NCBI GenBank assembly: GCA_001735895.1
Contig: DS021198.1
Coordinates: forward strand, 119,919-182,932
DNA length: 63,014 bases
Direction of reading: 5' to 3'
Source: Olavius algarvensis Gamma 3 endosymbiont
GTDB taxonomy: Bacteria; Pseudomonadota; Gammaproteobacteria; GCA-001735895
The notes under the pieces are model-generated. The model was not told the origin of the DNA and made no database searches. It was given only the letters and a program-made list of their open reading frames with translations. Positions 42,282-59,711 of the stretch are shown here, piece by piece (positions within the stretch are counted from its first letter, which is position 1; each line of letters starts with the position of its first letter). The translations under genes were made by a program, and so were the position numbers.

Positions 42282-43811
42282 TTATTCGATTGGCGCGCCG
42301 CCCTCGGCGCTGCGGCGCTCGATAAACGCCTGTAATTCTTCCAGCCGGGCGGGATCCATCGCCGGCGCCTCGAACTCCTGCAAAACCTTTTTCCAGATAC
42401 CATTGGCGCGCTGGGTTGCAGTTTTAGCGCCGTTTTCGGTCCACTGTCCGAAATTGCTCCAGTCGGAAACCAGCGGTTCGTAAAATGCCGTCTGGTAACG
42501 CTCCATGGTGTGCTCACAACCGAAAAAATGGCTGCCGGGTTCGACACTGGCGATTGCATCGAAGGCCAGTTCTGCATCGCTGCTGTCTAGCGGATTGAAG
42601 ACTTCGGCCAAGGTTTGCAGCATTTCCACATCGAGAATGAATTTTTCCATCGAGCCGGTGAGACCGCCTTCGAGCCAGCCGGCGGCATGCACCATCATAT
42701 TGACGCCGCCGAGGACGCTGCCCCAGGCCGACATCAGAAATTCATACACGGATTGTTCATCCGGCGTATTCGAGGCCGTTGCGGCGGAGCCGCGCCAGGG
42801 TAGACCGATATAACGCGCCAGTTGGCCGGCGCCAAAGGCCGCACGCACGAATTCCGGGGTGCCGAAGGCGGGTGAACCCGATTTCATATCGACGTTGGAA
42901 GTAAAGGAACCGTAAACCACCGGCGCGCCCGGGCGCACGCATTGCGACAGTAAAACACCCGCCAGCGCTTCGGCGTGTTGCAGCACCAGCGCTCCGGGCA
43001 TGGAAACCGGCGCCATCGCGCCCGCCAGGGTAAATGGCGTGATCACCGATACCTGCCCGGCGCGCGCGAAATCGATGATGCCCTGGCACATGGGGATATC
43101 GAGCTGGCGCGGCGAATTGGTGTTGATAATCGTATAACACCAGGGGCGTGCCTCGAATTCCGCTTGACTCACGCCCCTGGCGATGCGCGTCATAGCGAAT
43201 CCGTCTTCGACCTGGGCGCTGCCGCGCGAGTAGATGAAAAACGGTTTTCGGCTAAGCGTCAACTGGGCCTCGGTCACGCGGTAGTGGCGCAGATGAACCG
43301 GGATGTCCTGTGATTCGACATTGGGCGACTGCAGATGCAATACGTCGAAGTGTTCGCTGAGCTTGATAATATTGCGGGTATCTTCCAGTGTGCCGGGGCG
43401 TTTGCCGCGGTCGAGGTCGGATATATGCGGCGCGCCGCCGACACCGACGAAAGCGATGTTGTCGCCGCCCAGCGTGACATCCGTTGCCGCGACTGCTCCG
43501 TGGATGACGAATTCACTCGGTGCGGATTCGAGCGCGGACGAGATCAGAGCAGAATCCATCCTTACCAGCTGAGTCGTTTCGTCGACACTCGCGCCGCTCT
43601 GCTTGAAATAGTCGCGCGCCTCGGCATTGAGGACCTTGATCCCCAGTTCCTCGATGACCCGCAATGCGGTGTTATGTATCGCCGCCAGCCGGTCTTCGCT
43701 GAAGGCGGGTTGGCGTAACAGTGGATTTTTTAGCTTGCTGTAATCGACAACACGTTGGTGCGACTTGTCGGCAACCCCGTGGTGCCTGCCGCGGCGGGTT
43801 CTTCTACTCAT
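42282..43811 (-). CDS. MttB-family trimethylamine/quaternary-amine methyltransferase homologue
   Basis: About 509 residues, the size of MttB. Recognisable blocks are FSEDRLAAIHNTALRVIEELGIKVLN at the N-terminus, FVGVGGAPHISDLDRGKRPGT, and the C-terminal GSHFFGCEHTMERYQTAFYEPLVSDW typical of non-pyrrolysine MttB homologues. In characterised members such as MtgB, these demethylate glycine betaine or related quaternary amines onto a corrinoid protein. No in-frame TAG and no corrinoid protein or activator gene is seen here. I chose ATG 43811, preceded by GGAG and overlapping the TetR stop (ATGA). The tetR-mttB pair diverges from the cupin-oxidase operon. Confidence 0.85.
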   Translation of the reverse strand: MSRRTRRGRHHGVADKSHQRVVDYSKLKNPLLRQPAFSEDRLAAIHNTALRVIEELGIKVLNAEARDYFKQSGASVDETTQLVRMDSALISSALESAPSEFVIHGAVAATDVTLGGDNIAFVGVGGAPHISDLDRGKRPGTLEDTRNIIKLSEHFDVLHLQSPNVESQDIPVHLRHYRVTEAQLTLSRKPFFIYSRGSAQVEDGFAMTRIARGVSQAEFEARPWCYTIINTNSPRQLDIPMCQGIIDFARAGQVSVITPFTLAGAMAPVSMPGALVLQHAEALAGVLLSQCVRPGAPVVYGSFTSNVDMKSGSPAFGTPEFVRAAFGAGQLARYIGLPWRGSAATASNTPDEQSVYEFLMSAWGSVLGGVNMMVHAAGWLEGGLTGSMEKFILDVEMLQTLAEVFNPLDSSDAELAFDAIASVEPGSHFFGCEHTMERYQTAFYEPLVSDWSNFGQWTENGAKTATQRANGIWKKVLQEFEAPAMDPARLEELQAFIERRSAEGGAPIE

Positions 43812-44491
43812 GGTGAGTGATCTCCATAGGTGTCGAAAATATACCGCTTGAAAGCCTCGGCGCGTCGAGGATCGAGTCTTTTCCCGGTAAAACACTCGAA
43901 GTAAGATTCGGTGTAATTCAGCCGGGTGCTTAGCGTTTCTTCAATTTCGAGGGCGTAGAAGCCAATTTGCGAGTAGTAGAGTACGCGCGCCCGAATCAGT
44001 GCATCCGGTAGCGGGTAGTCGAAGCGGGCAAAAAAATCCTGCAGCGCGCCGATGCGAGCTGCGTCCTCACGATCCACCAGTTCGCGAATCGGGCGCGAAC
44101 GCCGGGACCATTCGCGAATCGCCAGGTCGAGGCGGGGATCGAAATGAGCGGCATCGACGCAAGTCTCGAAGTAGCCGAAAATACCGTCCTCGAGGTCAGC
44201 GGCTTGCTCGACCGAGCGAATTATCGCCGCGGTATTTTTGTCCTTCCAGTAACCTACCAACGCATCGATCAAGTCTTCGCGGTTTTCGAAATGCCAGTAA
44301 AAACTGCCGCGCGTGACGCCGAGGTCATCGGCCAGCCGGGTGATGCGCACCGCATCGATGCCGGCGGAAACGAATACATCCAGTGCCTGCTGCAGCCAGT
44401 CGAAGCGCTGTAGCTGATTACGGACCGTGATTGGAGCACCGCGTTCGGCCACCTCCTGAAGTAACTGGGTATCAGCCATCGATTGCACCAT
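43808..44491 (-). CDS. TetR-family regulator of the divergent catabolic cluster
   Basis: A 227-residue regulator. The N-terminal helix-turn-helix reads RITRLADDLGVTRGSFYWHFENREDLIDALV, the classical TetR signature. The C-terminal helical ligand-binding domain includes YYSQIGFYALEIEE. The ATG at 44491 lies under a palindrome, and an alternative ATG at 44479 would shorten it by four residues. Its stop overlaps the mttB start, so it controls and is cotranscribed with mttB. Palindromes at 44489-44525 are candidate operators for both directions. Confidence 0.88.
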   Translation of the reverse strand: MVQSMADTQLLQEVAERGAPITVRNQLQRFDWLQQALDVFVSAGIDAVRITRLADDLGVTRGSFYWHFENREDLIDALVGYWKDKNTAAIIRSVEQAADLEDGIFGYFETCVDAAHFDPRLDLAIREWSRRSRPIRELVDREDAARIGALQDFFARFDYPLPDALIRARVLYYSQIGFYALEIEETLSTRLNYTESYFECFTGKRLDPRRAEAFKRYIFDTYGDHSP

Positions 44492-53050: not shown

Positions 53051-55138
53051 TCAGTGGGATTTGATTCCAATCAAGGCATCCGCCACGATCGCGCCATGGT
53101 CTCGCGCGAGCAAAATCAGCGGGCTGATGCTGATTTCGACGATATCGCTGCGCGAATGCGCGAACGCCGATAAGGCCTCGATCGTATCCAGCGCGCTTTC
53201 GATATCCGCGGCGCTGCCGCCGCGGACACCGAGCAGGGTCGGGTATAATTTGAGTCGCGCTAGCGCCAGGCCGATGTGATCGCGGTTGCAGGGCAGCAAC
53301 AGGTTGACGCTGTCGTTTAACTGCTCCACCGGAGCGCCCCTAATGGACATGGTCAGCATAAAGCCGATATTCGCCACCAGGCGAATCGCAACCAACAGTT
53401 CGGCGATACCGCCGCGAATCGATTCCTCGACCAGAAACTGCCGCGCCTCATGACCATGGTCTTGCAGCGATGCGATCATTTGCATGCGCGCGAAATTCAG
53501 TAATTCCGCGTTAACCAGGTGGAGACTGACACCGCCGATATCGGACTTGCGCGGAATCGATGTATCGCAGGCCTTGAGCACCACCGGGAATCCGAGATCG
53601 TCGGGTAGAGCGGCTTGCGCGCTTACGCGGCGGCCGTTCGGCACCGGGATGCCAAACTCGTCAAGCAACTCCTTGGAGTCGGCTTCGTCGAGCTGGGTCG
53701 ACTTGGGTAGGTCTGCTGCCGGCGGCGCCGGTAGCAGCATGTTATCCGGATTCATGCGCTTGCGTCGCTGGTGCCGGTCGAGGGCGTGAGCGATCGCCCG
53801 CATGCCTAGTTCGAAGCCCTGTAGCGGCGCGACACCTAACCCGATCAGCATCTCTCTCGCCGCTTTCGGCAAACCCTCATGCGTCGATGAAACGAAGACC
53901 GCAGGTAATCCGGCCGTCTGAGCGGCTGCTGCAAACATCCTGACCGACCGGTGCCAACTTTCACTATGTCGCGGGTTTTTCGGCAGGAAAGGCAAGGATT
54001 GCACGGCAATATCGAAATCATCGGCGAGAAAACAGTTAAATATCGCCAACTGATCTTCGTCCGGCGCAAATTGGGCGGTGGCGACGTTCAGCGGATTTCC
54101 CGGCGCCAGGAAATCCGGAATCAGCGGGCGCAGCAGGTCGTGGGTTTCGGCGGTCAGCGGCGGTAGCGTGAACCCGCAACTTTCCGCGAAGTCCGCACCC
54201 ATTACGGAATAACTGCCGGAACCGGTTACCAGCGCCATGCGTGGACCCTTGGGTGCCGGCGCCAGGGTGAGCATTTTCAAGGTTTCCAGCGCTTCGCTTG
54301 CGGAACTGACCTCGACGAATCCGAGGCGTTCGAACAGGGCGGAAGCGACGGTGGTATCGCTGGTTGCTGACGCGCTATGGGTTATCGCCGCGCGGCGGCC
54401 GGCCTGCGACCTACCGGCCATGACTACCACTACAGGAATACCCTTGTGATGCGCCTTGAGAGCGCATTGGGTCAAACGCTCGACCTCATATATGCTTTCC
54501 AAATGCAGGTTTACCGCGCTGATGCGCTCATCGTCGAGAATAACCTCGAGCAGCTCGGCGGTGCTGACCGATGCCTGGTTGCCGAGCCCGGCGATGAGGG
54601 CAATCGGCAGCGAACGTTCCGCGCCGGTAATATCCGCCAGGTATGCACCGCCGTGGGAAAGTACCGCAACACCGCGTTTTGCGTCGCTGACGCCCATATC
54701 ATCCAGCATCGCGCCGAAGCGGTCGAGAAAACTGGCGATACCGGGGCAATTGGGACCTATTAGCGGCATCTTGCCGGCAGCCTCCAGCAGCCTGGCTTCG
54801 AGTATGGCGCCGGCTTCGCCGGTTTCGGCAAAACCCGAGCTGTTGACAATAGCGGCGCCGACGCCGGCCCGGGCGAGATCCGCTACCGCGTCGATGGCTG
54901 CGGCGGCAGGGACCGCGACAAAGGCGACATCGGGCGGGCTTTTGAGCTCGGTTGCGCTGCGCACGCAGTCGATTCCGCATAACCGCTTACGCCGCAGATT
55001 GACGACATGATAGCTGCCATCGAATCCAAGCGCTCGCGTATAGCCGATGACGGGTTCGAGCGCCGCGCCGCCGACAAAGACGATACTGCTGGGATTTAGC
55101 AGGCGCTTGAGGCGCAGGTAACGTTTATTATTGTTCAT
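53051..55138 (-). CDS. ADP-forming acyl-CoA synthetase (ACD superfamily), DddX-like size
   Basis: A 695-residue protein joining the alpha and beta parts of ADP-forming acyl-CoA synthetases. The alpha part has a CoA-binding Rossmann domain (SSIVFVGGAALEPVIGY), PLIGPNCPGI, GVAVLSHGGAYLADI, and the likely phospho-histidine His254 in RAAITHSASATSD. The beta ATP-grasp part starts near 480 with ELLDEFGIPVPNGRRV. The block PRKSDIGGVSLHL has Arg530 where ACD enzymes carry a second histidine. The DMSP lyase DddX belongs to this superfamily and has a similar length, and a DddP-like gene lies 1.4 kb away. Acid specificity is unproven. It diverges from the aldolase-dddP pair. Confidence 0.8.
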   Translation of the reverse strand: MNNNKRYLRLKRLLNPSSIVFVGGAALEPVIGYTRALGFDGSYHVVNLRRKRLCGIDCVRSATELKSPPDVAFVAVPAAAAIDAVADLARAGVGAAIVNSSGFAETGEAGAILEARLLEAAGKMPLIGPNCPGIASFLDRFGAMLDDMGVSDAKRGVAVLSHGGAYLADITGAERSLPIALIAGLGNQASVSTAELLEVILDDERISAVNLHLESIYEVERLTQCALKAHHKGIPVVVVMAGRSQAGRRAAITHSASATSDTTVASALFERLGFVEVSSASEALETLKMLTLAPAPKGPRMALVTGSGSYSVMGADFAESCGFTLPPLTAETHDLLRPLIPDFLAPGNPLNVATAQFAPDEDQLAIFNCFLADDFDIAVQSLPFLPKNPRHSESWHRSVRMFAAAAQTAGLPAVFVSSTHEGLPKAAREMLIGLGVAPLQGFELGMRAIAHALDRHQRRKRMNPDNMLLPAPPAADLPKSTQLDEADSKELLDEFGIPVPNGRRVSAQAALPDDLGFPVVLKACDTSIPRKSDIGGVSLHLVNAELLNFARMQMIASLQDHGHEARQFLVEESIRGGIAELLVAIRLVANIGFMLTMSIRGAPVEQLNDSVNLLLPCNRDHIGLALARLKLYPTLLGVRGGSAADIESALDTIEALSAFAHSRSDIVEISISPLILLARDHGAIVADALIGIKSH

Positions 55139-55497
55139 TGCGATTCAATACACACCAAATGAGCGGGGCTGTAAAGTAATAATGTCGGTTCTCCCCCAGT
55201 CAAGCGTGACGGGCAGCGAACCTGATTTGACCGGCTAGAGCGGCGTATCGGCCTGGACTTGCGATGCCACGGGAGGCGGGAATTAGCGGCGTTAGCAGAT
55301 ATCATAGCACAGGCGATGCCGACTAAGGTGGTTGCGGCGCAGACAGTAGGGAGGTTTCCGCTGTCACCGTGGCCCAGCAAGTGGGAAATGCGGGCCCGGC
55401 GGCGGGCAACGACGGCCCGGTTATCAGATTCAAAAAAGGATTCCCCTGACGTGATTTCCAGCCTAATATTGGCACAGTTTGAGCACGGATTTTGTGG
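55139..55497. other. Divergent promoter region
   Basis: About 360 bases between the minus-strand acyl-CoA synthetase and the plus-strand threonine aldolase. No gene is supported. It must hold both promoters, but no clear operator was recognised. Confidence 0.4.
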
Positions 55498-56514
55498 ATG
55501 ACAAATGCAGCGATAGTTGACTTGCGCAGCGATACGGTGACCCGTCCGAGCGCCGCTATGTACCAGGCTATGCGGGAAGCCCCGGTGGGTGACGACGTCT
55601 ACGGCGAAGACGAAACCGTGAATCGGCTGGAGGCCAGCGCGGCGCAGTTGCTGGGGAAACAGGCCGGTTTGTTTCTGAGCAGCGCCACCCAGGCCAATCT
55701 GGCAGCGATGTTGACACATAATGCGCGTGGCGAGGAAGTTCTACTCGGTGACTGTTACCACATTTTCGAGTCCGAGGCGGGTGGTACTTCGGCACTGGGG
55801 GGCATCATCATGCATCCGCTGGCAACCGACGCGGCGGGCGGCTTATCGCCGGCGCAAGTTCTGGCGGCGATCAAGCAAGACGATCCTCACCTTCCGATCA
55901 CGCGCACTTTGGCGCTGGAAAACACTGTTGCCGGGCAAGTGCAGGACCCATTGCAGCATCGCCGACTCGCCGAGGCGGTACGCGAGCAAGGAATTAGGGT
56001 GCATCTGGACGGCGCCCGCCTGATGAATGCCGCGGTGGCGCTGGCCTTGCCGGCGGCCGAAATCGTCGCTCCCTTCGATAGTGTGATGTTGTGCCTGTCG
56101 AAAGGCCTGGGCGCGCCGGTGGGAGCGGTTTTGTGCGGTAGCGATGCATTTATCGCGCGGGCGCGCCGTCTGCGCAAGATGCTCGGCGGCGGTATGCGCC
56201 AGGCGGGCGTGTTGGCGGCCTGTGGTCTCTATGCCCTGGAAAACAATATCGAGCGGCTGGCGCAGGATCACGCAACCGCCGGCCGCCTGGCTGCAGGCTT
56301 GGCCCAAATCGATGGCTTGCCGGTTAGCCATGAAACCAACATGGTGTTCATCGAACCTCGGGCACAAGATCTCGAACCCCTGCAGCAACATTTGCGGCGG
56401 CAGCGGGTCGAAATAGGTCGGCAAAGCCCGCGTATTCGATTGGTGACGCATCTCGACGTCGACAGCGACGGCATCGAGCGTGCGATTGCGGCCTTTCATT
56501 CCTATTTCAGGTGA
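55498..56514 (+). CDS. ltaE: Low-specificity L-threonine aldolase
   Basis: A 338-residue PLP enzyme that cleaves L-threonine and allo-threonine to glycine and acetaldehyde. The opening VDLRSDTVTRPSAAMYQAM and GDDVYGEDETVNRLE are diagnostic. The cofactor Asp lies in RVHLDGARLMNAA, and Schiff-base Lys202 lies in MLCLSKGLGAPVGAV. I chose the ATG at 55498, from which family homology begins immediately. A TTG two codons upstream is less likely. It lies seven bases before the DddP-like gene, so both should be on one mRNA. Confidence 0.92.
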   Translation: MTNAAIVDLRSDTVTRPSAAMYQAMREAPVGDDVYGEDETVNRLEASAAQLLGKQAGLFLSSATQANLAAMLTHNARGEEVLLGDCYHIFESEAGGTSALGGIIMHPLATDAAGGLSPAQVLAAIKQDDPHLPITRTLALENTVAGQVQDPLQHRRLAEAVREQGIRVHLDGARLMNAAVALALPAAEIVAPFDSVMLCLSKGLGAPVGAVLCGSDAFIARARRLRKMLGGGMRQAGVLAACGLYALENNIERLAQDHATAGRLAAGLAQIDGLPVSHETNMVFIEPRAQDLEPLQQHLRRQRVEIGRQSPRIRLVTHLDVDSDGIERAIAAFHSYFR

Positions 56515-56521
56515 TCGACGC

Positions 56522-57754
56522 ATGGGCGTGAATCCTGTCGAAAGGCTGGTTTTCGAAGATGACTGGAGCGACCTGAACCGCTTGCAGGATATGCCGCAGA
56601 TAAACCACGAGCGCATGTCCGACTACCGTATGGCACGACTCAAGCAACAGCTGCAGCTGCATGATGCCGCGCTGGTGGTGCTGCTCAATCCAATCAGCCT
56701 GCGCTACGCAGTCGATTACCGCAGCTACATGCTGTTCCAGTCGCATATTCCCCAGGTGTATCTGTTTCTGCCGCAAGACGGTCCTACGGTGATGTACGGC
56801 TGTTACTATGATGTGCCCCGGGTAGATGATTTTCGCCCGGGTCGGCCGCATGCCTTTTTCGACGGCGGCAACAACATCGATGCGGCCGCCCGGGGTCTGG
56901 CCGACGATGTCCTGGCCTATCTCGATGAGATCGGCAGCAGTAACCGGCGGGTCGCGCTCGAATACGTCAATCCCTCGATAGTCCAGGCGTTGGAGGCGCG
57001 CGGCATCGAAGTGATCGACGGAGTACGCATCGCCGAGCTGGCGCGCCTGATCAAATCCGAGGATGAAATCAATTGTATGCGTTGGGCGATCGCGGTCGGC
57101 CAGCATGGCGCAGCCATGGTCAAGCAGGCGTTGCGTCCCGGCGTAACCGAGCTGCAACTCTGGGGTTTGTTGAATTACACCAATATCGCCAATAACGGCG
57201 ATTGGCACGAAGGGCGCATGCTATCTTCCGGAGCGCGCATTAATCCGTGGCTGCAGGAAGCGAGCGAGCGCAAGATCGAATCCGGCGACCTGGTGGGGTT
57301 CGACACCGACATGGTTGGGCCCTTTGGTTACTTTGTCGATTTGTCACGCAGCTTTCATTGCGGCCCGGCAAAACCGACCCGCCGGCAAAAGCAGATCTAC
57401 CGCATGGCGGTCGATGAAATCGAGCATAATCTAAAATTGGTTTATCCCGGCATGACCTTGAAAGAGATGCAGCGCCGGGCTTACCCGGTGCCGGAAGAGT
57501 GCCGCCAAAATGCCTATCCCTGTATCATGCACGCGGTCGGCATGTGCGACGAGTACCCGCAGGTCAAACATCTGTTTCGCCAGGAAAATCCCTACGACTG
57601 CGAACTCGAGGCCGGCATGGTAGTTTGCATCGAGAGTTACATGGGTCCGCAAGGCGAACGCGACGGCGTAAAGCTCGAGCAACAGGTGCTGATCACCGCG
57701 GACGGATACGAGTTGCTTACGACCTATCCCTGGGAAGCCTGTTTGCTCGATTGA
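56522..57754 (+). CDS. dddP: DddP-type DMSP lyase (M24 metallopeptidase fold)
   Basis: A 410-residue cytosolic protein of the M24 pita-bread fold. Residues expected in DMSP lyase DddP are present: Asp261, Asp263 and Asp273 (FDTDMVGPFGYFVD), Tyr332 and His337 (AYPCIMHAVG), Asp343 (MCDEY), Glu371 (CIESYMGP) and Glu386 (VKLEQQVLI). Their spacing, D-x-D then ten residues to the next D, follows DddP, not the 11-residue D-D spacing of M24 peptidases (from memory of the R. lacuscaerulensis enzyme). DddP cleaves DMSP to dimethyl sulfide and acrylate. I chose ATG 56522 with AGGTG before it. A divergent M24 enzyme with another substrate cannot be excluded. Confidence 0.78.
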   Translation: MGVNPVERLVFEDDWSDLNRLQDMPQINHERMSDYRMARLKQQLQLHDAALVVLLNPISLRYAVDYRSYMLFQSHIPQVYLFLPQDGPTVMYGCYYDVPRVDDFRPGRPHAFFDGGNNIDAAARGLADDVLAYLDEIGSSNRRVALEYVNPSIVQALEARGIEVIDGVRIAELARLIKSEDEINCMRWAIAVGQHGAAMVKQALRPGVTELQLWGLLNYTNIANNGDWHEGRMLSSGARINPWLQEASERKIESGDLVGFDTDMVGPFGYFVDLSRSFHCGPAKPTRRQKQIYRMAVDEIEHNLKLVYPGMTLKEMQRRAYPVPEECRQNAYPCIMHAVGMCDEYPQVKHLFRQENPYDCELEAGMVVCIESYMGPQGERDGVKLEQQVLITADGYELLTTYPWEACLLD

Positions 57755-58313
57755 TAAGGTTCTCCCGGTACACGCCGGGCCGCTATGCTGGTAGCAGGTG
57801 ATCAGATTCCCACACATCGACCGCATCCCGCGCAGCGGCCGTCGGCCCCGCGCCGCCCTCGTCATCCCCGCGCGACCCTCGTCATCCCCGCGTTACACTC
57901 GTCATCCCCGCGAAAGCGGCGGTCCGACGTATCGGGATCTTGCAACGAGCCATCATTACGAGATCCCGGCTCGGGGGCCGGGATGACAGCCGCGCTCGTC
58001 ATCCCCGCGCGACCTTCGTCATCCCCGCGAAAGCGGCGGTCCGACGTATCGGGATCTTGCAACGAGCCATCGTTACGAGATCCCGGCTCGGGGACCGGGA
58101 TGACAGCTGCACTCCTCATCCCCGCTTAAGCGGAAACCTGTTAATTTTCGGCCCACATTCGAGGATAGCGATGTTGTGAAATAACGCTTAAGTCTATTAA
58201 CTAATGGGCATCTGCCCACGAATTGTTCCATTATAATTAATGGGCGAAAAACTTGTTTTTGTTTCCTCCGGGGAGTAGGGTAACGCTTCGATCAGGGTCC
58301 GTAAATTCTTGCC
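57755..58313. other. Intergenic region with tandem palindromic repeats
   Basis: About 560 bases between dddP and the methyltransferase gene. The left half is filled by the repeat block at 57859-58126. The right half (58140-58313) is AT-rich and should carry the promoter of the methyltransferase. No gene is supported. Confidence 0.6.
57859..58126. repeat. Two tandem 87-bp palindromic repeats plus partial units
   Basis: Units at 57901-57987 and 58018-58104 are identical except for two substitutions, with period 117. Each begins GTCATCCCCGCGAAAGCGG and ends CCGGGATGAC, and internally GGGATCTTG pairs with CGAGATCCC, so each unit can fold as a long hairpin. Extra copies of the CGTCATCCCCGCG end occur at about 57859, 57879 and 57997, with a variant at 58114. 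The form resembles the GTCATCCC-type dispersed MITE-like repeats common in proteobacterial genomes. Confidence 0.85.
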
Positions 58314-59711
58314 ATGAGCGCTACCGCCGAGTCATTGTTAAAAGAAGTAGAGGCATACTGCCGCAATGCAGGCCTGGCCGAGTCGACCTTCGGTCGTCAG
58401 GCGGTTAACGATGGCAAACTGTGCGCGCGGCTGCGTGCCGGTAAAAATGTGACCCTGGCGACTGCGCAACGGATTAGGGATTACATCGCTCGGCAAACGG
58501 CCGCCGGCAATGCGGCCGCCCCAGAAACCGAGCCAGATGGGCGGCAGACGCAATCCCCGGCGAGTAACATGACACATGTGACCGACGATCGGCCGTTTCG
58601 ATTCTACGACAACCGTCAGAAATATCTTGCTTTTGTAAATACCTGTAACGAAAAGTGGAAGGTCGCCGAACGCGCCACGCAGGAACTGACGCATATCCGC
58701 CCCATACCGCCGGCACTGCGGCTGTTCGATGCCGGGGTTGGCGATGGTACCGTGTTAGGTCACCTGATGCGCGCACTGCATCGGCGCTTCCCGACGATAC
58801 CTTTTTTCATCGTCGGCAAGGAAATCAGCCTCGAAGATGTGCGGTTGACGCTCGAGAAACTGCCCGACCGCTTTATCGAACACCCCGCCAGCGTCATTAT
58901 CGTCACCAACCTGTATTACGCCGAAGCGCCCTGGTTAATGCCCAACAATGTCGCCAAGGCAGCGGCGCTGAACTGGATCGAAATGCCGCTGCGGGGTGCT
59001 TCCGCCCACGAATTCGGCGAACAATTGCGCGGTATCGACAAGCAACTGGTTGACGGCTGGCAGGTAAAGGCGAATGAGAAAACCGGAAATCCGATGTACG
59101 TGCGGCCCTCGGTGTTGGTGATGTTTCGCGAGGACCACCGTTTCCTGCTCGACGATGTGATTCCCAGGCGCGGCCAGGCCGCCGGCGGCGATTACGATCT
59201 GGTATTGGCATCGCAACCGTGGCGCGCGCGCATGAATGCCGATTTCAAGGTTAAACACGTGCTTTCGCCGCTGACCAGGAGCCTGCGACCGGGCGGCAGG
59301 CTGCTGACGGCGCAATCCTGCGGCGCTGATCCCGGGCTCGAACTGGTGCGCAAAATCTGGCCCGACGAAGATCCTTTTCGGGTCGGTCGGCACGAACTGA
59401 TCAAGGTGCTCAAGGAGTATCTCGGGCGCGCGGCGCATAATTACAATTTCAACGCCGGCTCCGATGCGAAGTCGGTTTTCGAGTATCAAATGCATACTTT
59501 ACCTACCGAAATCGGCGAGTCGATAGGGACATCGACGCTGTTTGCCGCCTGGAACGCGGCCATTTATGTCGGTCAGATCGAAGACGAGCGCCTCGAACCG
59601 GTGGTTTCCTCGGGTGAATACCTCGATGCCACCGCCGACATCTTGCATAAACACAACGGCATCTGGTTCAACGACGAAACTTTTGTGGTTTCCAGGAAAC
59701 GCGATACCTGA
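58314..59711 (+). CDS. SAM methyltransferase with an N-terminal HTH-like domain
   Basis: A 465-residue protein. Residues 1-62 read like a small DNA-binding domain (AGLAESTFGRQAVNDGKLCARLR, then LATAQRIRDYIAR). A polar linker (65-92) follows. The catalytic part starts near 93, with methyltransferase motif I ALRLFDAGVGDGTVLGHLMRAL (about 134-155). The late strand has VLSPLTRSLRPGGRLLTAQSCG, typical of class I enzymes. It ends SRKRDT. No family name or acceptor is recognised. It is convergent with nrdJb and preceded by the repeat block. Confidence 0.65.
   Translation: MSATAESLLKEVEAYCRNAGLAESTFGRQAVNDGKLCARLRAGKNVTLATAQRIRDYIARQTAAGNAAAPETEPDGRQTQSPASNMTHVTDDRPFRFYDNRQKYLAFVNTCNEKWKVAERATQELTHIRPIPPALRLFDAGVGDGTVLGHLMRALHRRFPTIPFFIVGKEISLEDVRLTLEKLPDRFIEHPASVIIVTNLYYAEAPWLMPNNVAKAAALNWIEMPLRGASAHEFGEQLRGIDKQLVDGWQVKANEKTGNPMYVRPSVLVMFREDHRFLLDDVIPRRGQAAGGDYDLVLASQPWRARMNADFKVKHVLSPLTRSLRPGGRLLTAQSCGADPGLELVRKIWPDEDPFRVGRHELIKVLKEYLGRAAHNYNFNAGSDAKSVFEYQMHTLPTEIGESIGTSTLFAAWNAAIYVGQIEDERLEPVVSSGEYLDATADILHKHNGIWFNDETFVVSRKRDT

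Follow-up and report, generated by a model that had tools for sequence, protein, structure and literature searches.

DddP is the product of what is reported to be the commonest oceanic DMSP lyase gene, with dddP accounting for about 65% of ddd genes in one survey (PMC10686828). The enzyme has a reported Km of 14-17 mM, and a review describes the DMSP sulfur as bound by a conserved tryptophan and a tyrosine, in a passage that gives no residue number (PMC5395565). The RdDddP paper names six metal ligands and favours Asp377 as the base; it describes Asp297 as not conserved with methionine aminopeptidases, the other metal-ligand interactions being structurally conserved (PMC4108388). The gene has been reported in Gammaproteobacteria (PMC5015088) and O. 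doudoroffii carries two copies, DddP1 and DddP2 (PMC10989825). The sequence-only reading, which presented our gene as a DddP outside its alphaproteobacterial setting, therefore described a setting that was already in print.

We analysed a window of 63,014 nucleotides from the Olavius algarvensis Gamma 3 endosymbiont, in which a DddP-like gene (P0001) has the following surroundings:

42282..43895, minus strand: MttB-superfamily methyltransferase, 12.6 kb upstream of P0001 and on the other strand (TIGR02369, 327 of 525 bits)
53051..55138, minus strand: ADP-forming acyl-CoA synthetase of the superfamily that includes DddX (best PDB match 8wzu, 4-hydroxybutyrate-CoA ligase)
55492..56514, plus strand: threonine-aldolase / GntG-family PLP enzyme (NF041359, 412 bits, cut-off 230; NF007825, 352 bits, cut-off 312)
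56522..57754, plus strand: P0001, DddP-like gene of the M24 / pita-bread fold (410 aa, from the translation)
57846..58125, plus strand: tandem-repeat block with CGTCATCCCCGCGAAAGCGG units (20-mer x3.3, 117-mer x2.1)
58314..59711, plus strand: 465-aa protein downstream of P0001 (82-87% identical to the L055 homologue in the genus loci that show it)

The threonine aldolase directly upstream and the repeat block downstream had both been pointed out from the sequence, and we found them there. The frame of P0001 is open from an ATG start through 410 codons to a stop; a gap of 7 bases lies between it and the aldolase stop codon, and the two genes probably form one operon. Since pN/pS was 0.09-0.21 against five orthologues of the same genus, P0001 is a real, constrained gene under purifying selection. 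Orthologues with 64-91% identity were present in 17 of the 30 other same-genus genomes searched (18 of 31 with its own; one is a partial match), and the same search gave no orthologue in 26 genomes outside the genus, where the best identity was 42%. The CGTCATCCCCGCGAAAGCGG unit is a scattered genomic repeat, with 6 exact genome matches when one base was left free and 0 for the reversed control. The 465-aa protein gave no Pfam match at 1e-3 and no NCBIfam match at 1e-20; by eye it resembles a SAM methyltransferase, with a helix-turn-helix-like start and a methyltransferase-like motif.

P0001 had been taken for the DMSP lyase DddP itself. On the NCBIfam DddP model (NF043017) it scored 285 bits against a cut-off of 600. 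The proteins that passed were L155 (668 bits) and the product of another gene in the same genome (620 bits; G000:C2:67007-68269, L016:8044-9276, upstream masked), while the nine other DddP-like proteins scanned, including L102 from the clade of P0001, gave 273-440 bits. The model matches all 50 clade members scanned, the best at E 1.7e-94, which corresponds to about 317 bits (scaled from 6e-94 = 315 bits) and lies far below 600. In the alignment P0001 is about 34% identical to RlDddP, and its best tblastn identity to an NCBI-annotated DddP is 40% (Oceanisphaera). When the PDB was searched with phmmer, RlDddP (4rzy) was found at E 3.8e-69 and the best M24 peptidase chain at 3.6e-14. The Pfam M24 model (PF00557) gave 92.9 bits (cut-off 23), and the ectoine hydrolase model for DoeA (NF038259) 24.2 bits (cut-off 575).

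For the phylogeny we used a quick IQ-TREE run with SH-aLRT supports only on 84 dereplicated rows, without the rows of L007, L013, L128, L132 and L133 and without the fungal and Oceanimonas DddPs. P0001 fell into a clade of 39 rows (SH-aLRT 100). A second clade of 18 rows (SH-aLRT 100), here called DddP-proper, holds two DddP crystal structures together with the DddP of the genome itself. Forcing P0001 into DddP-proper cost 126 log-likelihood units and was rejected (AU p 0.0003). The two clades could be sisters, since joining them as one was not rejected (AU p 0.585).

The AlphaFold2 model of P0001, built from 50 aligned sequences, had a pLDDT of 92.9. Its best four Foldseek matches in the PDB were all DddP (TMq 0.90, E 4.5e-42 to 1.2e-40), followed by a Xaa-Pro dipeptidase (TMq 0.69, E 2.9e-22), and non-DddP structures of the M24 fold reached a TMq of 0.49-0.75 among the 50 matches listed. 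The predicted fold therefore matches DddP far better than M24 peptidases, and phmmer and Foldseek together rule out an ordinary M24 peptidase as the nearest kin. Sequence, tree and predicted fold agree with the earlier view that P0001 is nearer to DddP than to M24 peptidases or creatinase. Its identification as DddP was not sustained, given the model score, the rejected placement in the DddP clade and the exchange of Trp95 for phenylalanine described below. Judged by these comparisons, P0001 belongs to a separate DddP-like clade and is not the DMSP lyase DddP.

The sequence-only reading listed eight DddP residues in P0001 (D261, D263, D273, Y332, H337, D343, E371 and E386) with a drift of one residue at the two glutamates. 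The alignment to RlDddP (PDB 4rzy) bears this out in full, the counterparts being D295, D297, D307, Y366, H371, D377, E406 and E421. The codons, with their roles assigned by alignment, are located as follows:

56735..56737, plus strand: F72, at the place of RlDddP Trp95
57302..57310, plus strand: D261-T262-D263, of which D261 and D263 are metal ligands (D295 and D297 of RlDddP)
57338..57340, plus strand: D273, metal ligand (D307)
57515..57550, plus strand: Y332 to D343, with Y332 (Y366), the ligand H337 (H371) and D343 (D377), the proposed base
57632..57634, plus strand: E371, metal ligand (E406)
57677..57679, plus strand: E386, metal ligand (E421)

The departure of the D-x-D motif from methionine aminopeptidases also agrees with the RdDddP paper (PMC4108388). 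All six ligands expected of DddP are present in P0001, as they are in the other aligned DddP-like subfamilies, and the equivalents of Tyr366 and Asp377 are found as Y332 and D343. In the 83 clade rows (best 80 of 292 plus three) the eight equivalents are kept in 82-83; the exceptions are L132, which is without the last four, and one cell that reads X. The other aligned DddP-like rows also keep them, save for Asp377, which is valine in four and glycine in two. Since the aligned DddP-like subfamilies nearly all share the eight residues, these are not diagnostic of a DMSP lyase.

The sulfur-binding tryptophan is a different matter. We take it to be residue 95, by counting on the RlDddP row, and this is reportedly also the number in Wang et al. 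2015. Position 95 is tryptophan in 21 of 21 DddP-proper rows and phenylalanine in 81 of the 83 clade rows (best 80 of 292 plus three), with tryptophan in L094 and L102 only. P0001 has F72 there. Since residues 70-73 are the sole run of three or more residues with a pLDDT below 50, the position of F72 in the model is unreliable. In total, 18 columns are fixed differently between the two clades, including M92 to Y69, W95 to F72 and A103 to Y80.

To describe the clade we scanned a contig collection of 84,980 species once with two peptide patterns and kept the best 80 of 292 confirmed candidates. These 80 loci have 57-91% identity to P0001 and come from Gamma- and Alphaproteobacteria (many of them metagenomic), including Mesorhizobium, Leisingera and Roseovarius, and from Acidimicrobiales. 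Among 398 genomes sampled from the phylum, 41 matched at E <= 1e-60, and a clade-level score was seen only in the genome of the window (749 bits; the next genome, 410). With two plasmid loci and the window itself, the best 80 of 292 made 83 loci; grouping at 85% reduced these to 53 groups, of which 35 have flanks of 4 kb or more on each side.

Within 5 kb, as raw counts uncorrected for background, the commonest gene cluster of the 53 groups was a Rieske oxygenase (14 groups) related to carnitine and glycine-betaine monooxygenases; the others include SDR (11), Zn-ADH (8), the mandelate-racemase family (7), ABC ATPase (7), DAO-GCV_T, which is dimethylglycine-dehydrogenase-like (6), GFA (6), sulfotransferase (6) and MttB-like (5). 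The Rieske catalytic domain was likewise the commonest Pfam domain (12 of 97) among neighbour proteins hand-picked from 196; the choice favoured large proteins encoded close by in loci of other genera and is thus not a random sample. A highly conserved Rieske protein, 55-79% identical to that of L073, occurs in 10 of the 53 groups (L073 itself included; that of L090 is a partial frame), and in 9 of the 10 it lies at most 502 bp from the DddP-like gene. In the PDB it matches carnitine monooxygenase 6y9c best; 3vca, taken to be stachydrine demethylase, ranks fourth, after salicylate 5-hydroxylase. The best NCBIfam match is glycine-betaine monooxygenase, at 154 of 670 bits. Two clade members on Mesorhizobium plasmids (59-60%) lie near ProX, ProV and permease genes, an MttB-family gene, GlxA regulators and SDRs. 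Most ABC-ATPase matches are distant (25-35%), and at least 46% was reached only in five loci from 4 groups. That the Zn-ADH neighbours are AcuI was not supported: for four ADHs no match to TIGR02823 was listed at E 1e-30, and three of these reached just 119-129 bits on another acryloyl-CoA reductase model, for which 500 are required. We also observed a second, DoeA-like (ectoine-hydrolase-like) M24 gene at most 2 kb from the DddP-like gene in L081, L085, L089, L097, L098 and L114.

Around P0001 itself the neighbours are the threonine aldolase, the acyl-CoA synthetase and a DAO oxidase, and we found no Rieske or betaine transporter gene near it within the window. The aldolase is the constant partner within the genus; it lies directly upstream in 5 of the 53 groups, exactly those at least 79% identical to P0001 (4 groups and 13 loci when counted by gene clustering), and was not named next to the gene in the remaining 48, some of which have short flanks. 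The acyl-CoA synthetase was tried as DddX and dismissed: 8wzu was the better PDB match (154 bits, against 140 for the DMSP lyase DddX, 7cm9), and a TauD-like gene occupies that region in two loci of the genus, L060 and L067. The synthetase gene is kept in L066. The MttB-superfamily protein is below the TMA-type cut-off, and its PDB matches are 4yyc (best), 2qne and the glycine betaine methyltransferase 9yce (293 bits). The best Rieske of the genome, which is 87% complete, reaches only 35% identity to the partner conserved in the clade.

The genome and the genus hold further DddP-like genes. An apparent 6310-aa fusion with the DddP of the same genome is an artefact of a masked run: in the first 8 kb of L016 five frames are open simultaneously, and comparable runs in L017 and L018 translate as X. 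A DddP-like homologue in two reading frames (G000:C1:194649-195795, L017:12072-13311) begins 18 kb from the start of P0001 and is a pseudogene or a sequencing error; G003 and G005 have open-frame DddP-like homologues at a distance of 16-17 kb from their P0001 orthologue. A 143-aa open frame (L018:6347-6778) contains the start and end pieces of a DddP-like protein with the middle missing and is perhaps a deletion remnant. It lies near frames that resemble transposases by eye.

At 12 of the 16 available DddP-proper loci of the same genus, an MttB-type or dimethylglycine-dehydrogenase-like gene lies within 2.6 kb. Eight of them (L037, L039, L145, L147, L148, L149, L150 and L153) have an MttB-family gene, 57-61% identical to a Sinorhizobium MttB-superfamily methyltransferase, with gaps of 116-924 bp in seven and 2.6 kb in one, so that a betaine-demethylase-type gene sits beside a putative DMSP lyase gene in these eight loci. 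Four have a large FAD oxidoreductase, labelled dimethylglycine-dehydrogenase-like by analogy, 5-6 bp away. The four with neither are three loci whose flanks do not exceed 1.5 kb and the genome's own DddP, whose upstream is masked. Among the loci opened, the rest of the DddP superfamily looks similar to the clade in its neighbourhoods. Rhizobial DddP-like genes lie near Rieske, 4-hydroxyproline epimerase and glycine-betaine ABC genes in some loci and near MttB, glycine-betaine binding protein and racemase-family genes in others. The annotated DddPs are found near an alcohol dehydrogenase and a racemase-family gene in Paracoccus yeei, a Rieske pair in Loktanella, and an FAD/2Fe2S/FAD set with a TRAP transporter in Oceanisphaera. 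Other loci are less telling, such as that of Caballeronia, with a Rieske and no betaine transporter named.

From the predicted fold, the metal-site residues, the separate clade and the neighbourhoods of its members we infer an elimination chemistry and a class of substrate. P0001 would be a DddP-fold lyase of an onium zwitterion, that is, an onium-betaine lyase, a reading in which we have about even confidence. Since the sulfonium-binding tryptophan is replaced by phenylalanine and many relatives lie in clusters for methylated-amine breakdown, the substrate would more likely be a quaternary-ammonium betaine than DMSP. By analogy with DddP, two metal ions held by D261, D263, D273, H337, E371 and E386 would bind the substrate carboxylate, Asp343 would take the alpha-proton next to it, and the bond from the next (beta) carbon to the positively charged onium group, held by Phe72 and Tyr332, would break. 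The window's own neighbourhood backs this betaine reading weakly. It lacks a Rieske or betaine transporter gene close to P0001, the MttB gene is 12.6 kb away, and the genome, 87% complete, has no Rieske closer than 35% to the conserved partner. Further points against the betaine are that many of the 53 groups are without these neighbours in the available flanks, that SDR, ADH and ABC genes are common anywhere, that two of the 83 clade rows (best 80 of 292 plus three) keep the tryptophan and that the clade may be sister to DddP-proper.

It is unlikely, in our estimate, that P0001 is instead a divergent but true DMSP lyase, the second DddP of the cell, with phenylalanine standing in for Trp95. 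In favour of this, P0001 is closest to DddP in both sequence and fold, all metal ligands and the equivalents of Tyr366 and Asp377 are kept, the clades may be sisters, identity to the annotated Oceanisphaera DddP reaches 40%, and two DddPs are reported in some bacteria such as O. doudoroffii (PMC10989825). Since phenylalanine is still able to hold a sulfonium, P0001 could act on DMSP, and acrylate could be handled because a YhdH/AcuI-family gene over its cut-off lies elsewhere in the genome (as in 2 of 14 control genomes). However, P0001 reaches less than half of a cut-off that another gene of the genome passes, its 34% identity to RlDddP is below the 40% to ratified sequences used in a survey (PMC10686828), W95F runs through 81 of 83 clade rows (best 80 of 292 plus three), and the Mesorhizobium members adjoin betaine-type genes.

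An M24-type hydrolase with a retained DddP-like site, be it a Xaa-Pro dipeptidase or a creatinase- or ectoine-hydrolase-like enzyme, is also improbable. The Pfam M24 match, the pita-bread fold common to peptidases, creatinase and ectoine hydrolase, and the name Xaa-Pro peptidase family protein that NCBI gives to several plasmid relatives speak for it; the much greater distance of the peptidase structures in Foldseek, and the extra Asp ligand and Tyr/Asp pair described for DddP (PMC4108388), speak against it. According to the review, recombinant RlDddP had no measurable valine-proline activity (PMC5395565). We consider it very unlikely that P0001 serves a genus-specific pathway with the threonine aldolase, acting on a compound derived from a beta-hydroxy amino acid and unrelated to betaines, even though the aldolase is directly upstream in all five groups at least 79% identical to P0001 and the genome of the window lacks a close homologue of the conserved Rieske partner. 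In the remaining 48 groups, some with short flanks, no aldolase was named next to the gene, and almost all clade members share F72 and the catalytic set, which suggests one chemistry.

A broader form of the onium-betaine lyase reading would extend it to the whole DddP superfamily, with quaternary-ammonium catabolism as the main job and DMSP cleavage as an offshoot, the clade of P0001 breaking C-N+ by beta-elimination. We regard this as quite unlikely; an example, at a guess, would be the ring opening of oxidised (4-oxo) hydroxyproline betaine. If true, it would fit the SDR, Zn-ADH, racemase-family, OYE-type reductase, Rieske and dimethylglycine-dehydrogenase-like neighbours, and also the millimolar Km of DddP for DMSP.

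In the open-licence literature, searched by its listings, we found no paper on the clade of P0001 or on DddP beside betaine genes, and in the open-licence literature none that joins DddP with Rieske and glycine betaine. Since P0001 is 34% identical to RlDddP, a survey that required 40% identity to ratified DddP sequences (PMC10686828) would probably leave the clade out; looser counts could include it, because P0001 is 40% identical to the annotated Oceanisphaera DddP. Because a large group of relatives shares the catalytic residues yet differs at a substrate-site residue and has betaine-type neighbours, DMS producers cannot be distinguished from others by checking residues alone. The clade also offers a testable idea of the origin of DddP and of a non-DMSP role, given the reported Km of 14-17 mM (PMC5395565).

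Compared with DddP (RlDddP 4rzy/4s00/4s01; RdDddP 4b28), P0001 shares the predicted fold (TMq 0.90), the six metal ligands and the equivalents of Tyr366 and Asp377, and differs in its sequence (identity about 34%), phenylalanine for Trp95, the 18 columns, a separate clade and less than half of the curated cut-off. With the M24B peptidases (Xaa-Pro dipeptidase, aminopeptidase P) it has in common the pita-bread catalytic domain and most metal ligands (PMC4108388); unlike them it has an extra Asp ligand in D-x-D, and they reach only a TMq of 0.49-0.75 and 15-21% identity among the matches listed. From ectoine hydrolase and creatinase P0001 is set apart by a score of only 24.2 of 575 bits and a Foldseek TMq of about 0.66-0.70. 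Both ectoine hydrolase (DoeA/EutD) and creatinase have the M24 fold and act on small nitrogen compounds that resemble compatible solutes. The DddP-like proteins of rhizobial plasmids, named Xaa-Pro peptidase family protein, belong to the same superfamily and have the same metal ligands, but they are 34-36% identical to P0001 and have tryptophan (L053 and L141) or tyrosine (L140) at position 95.
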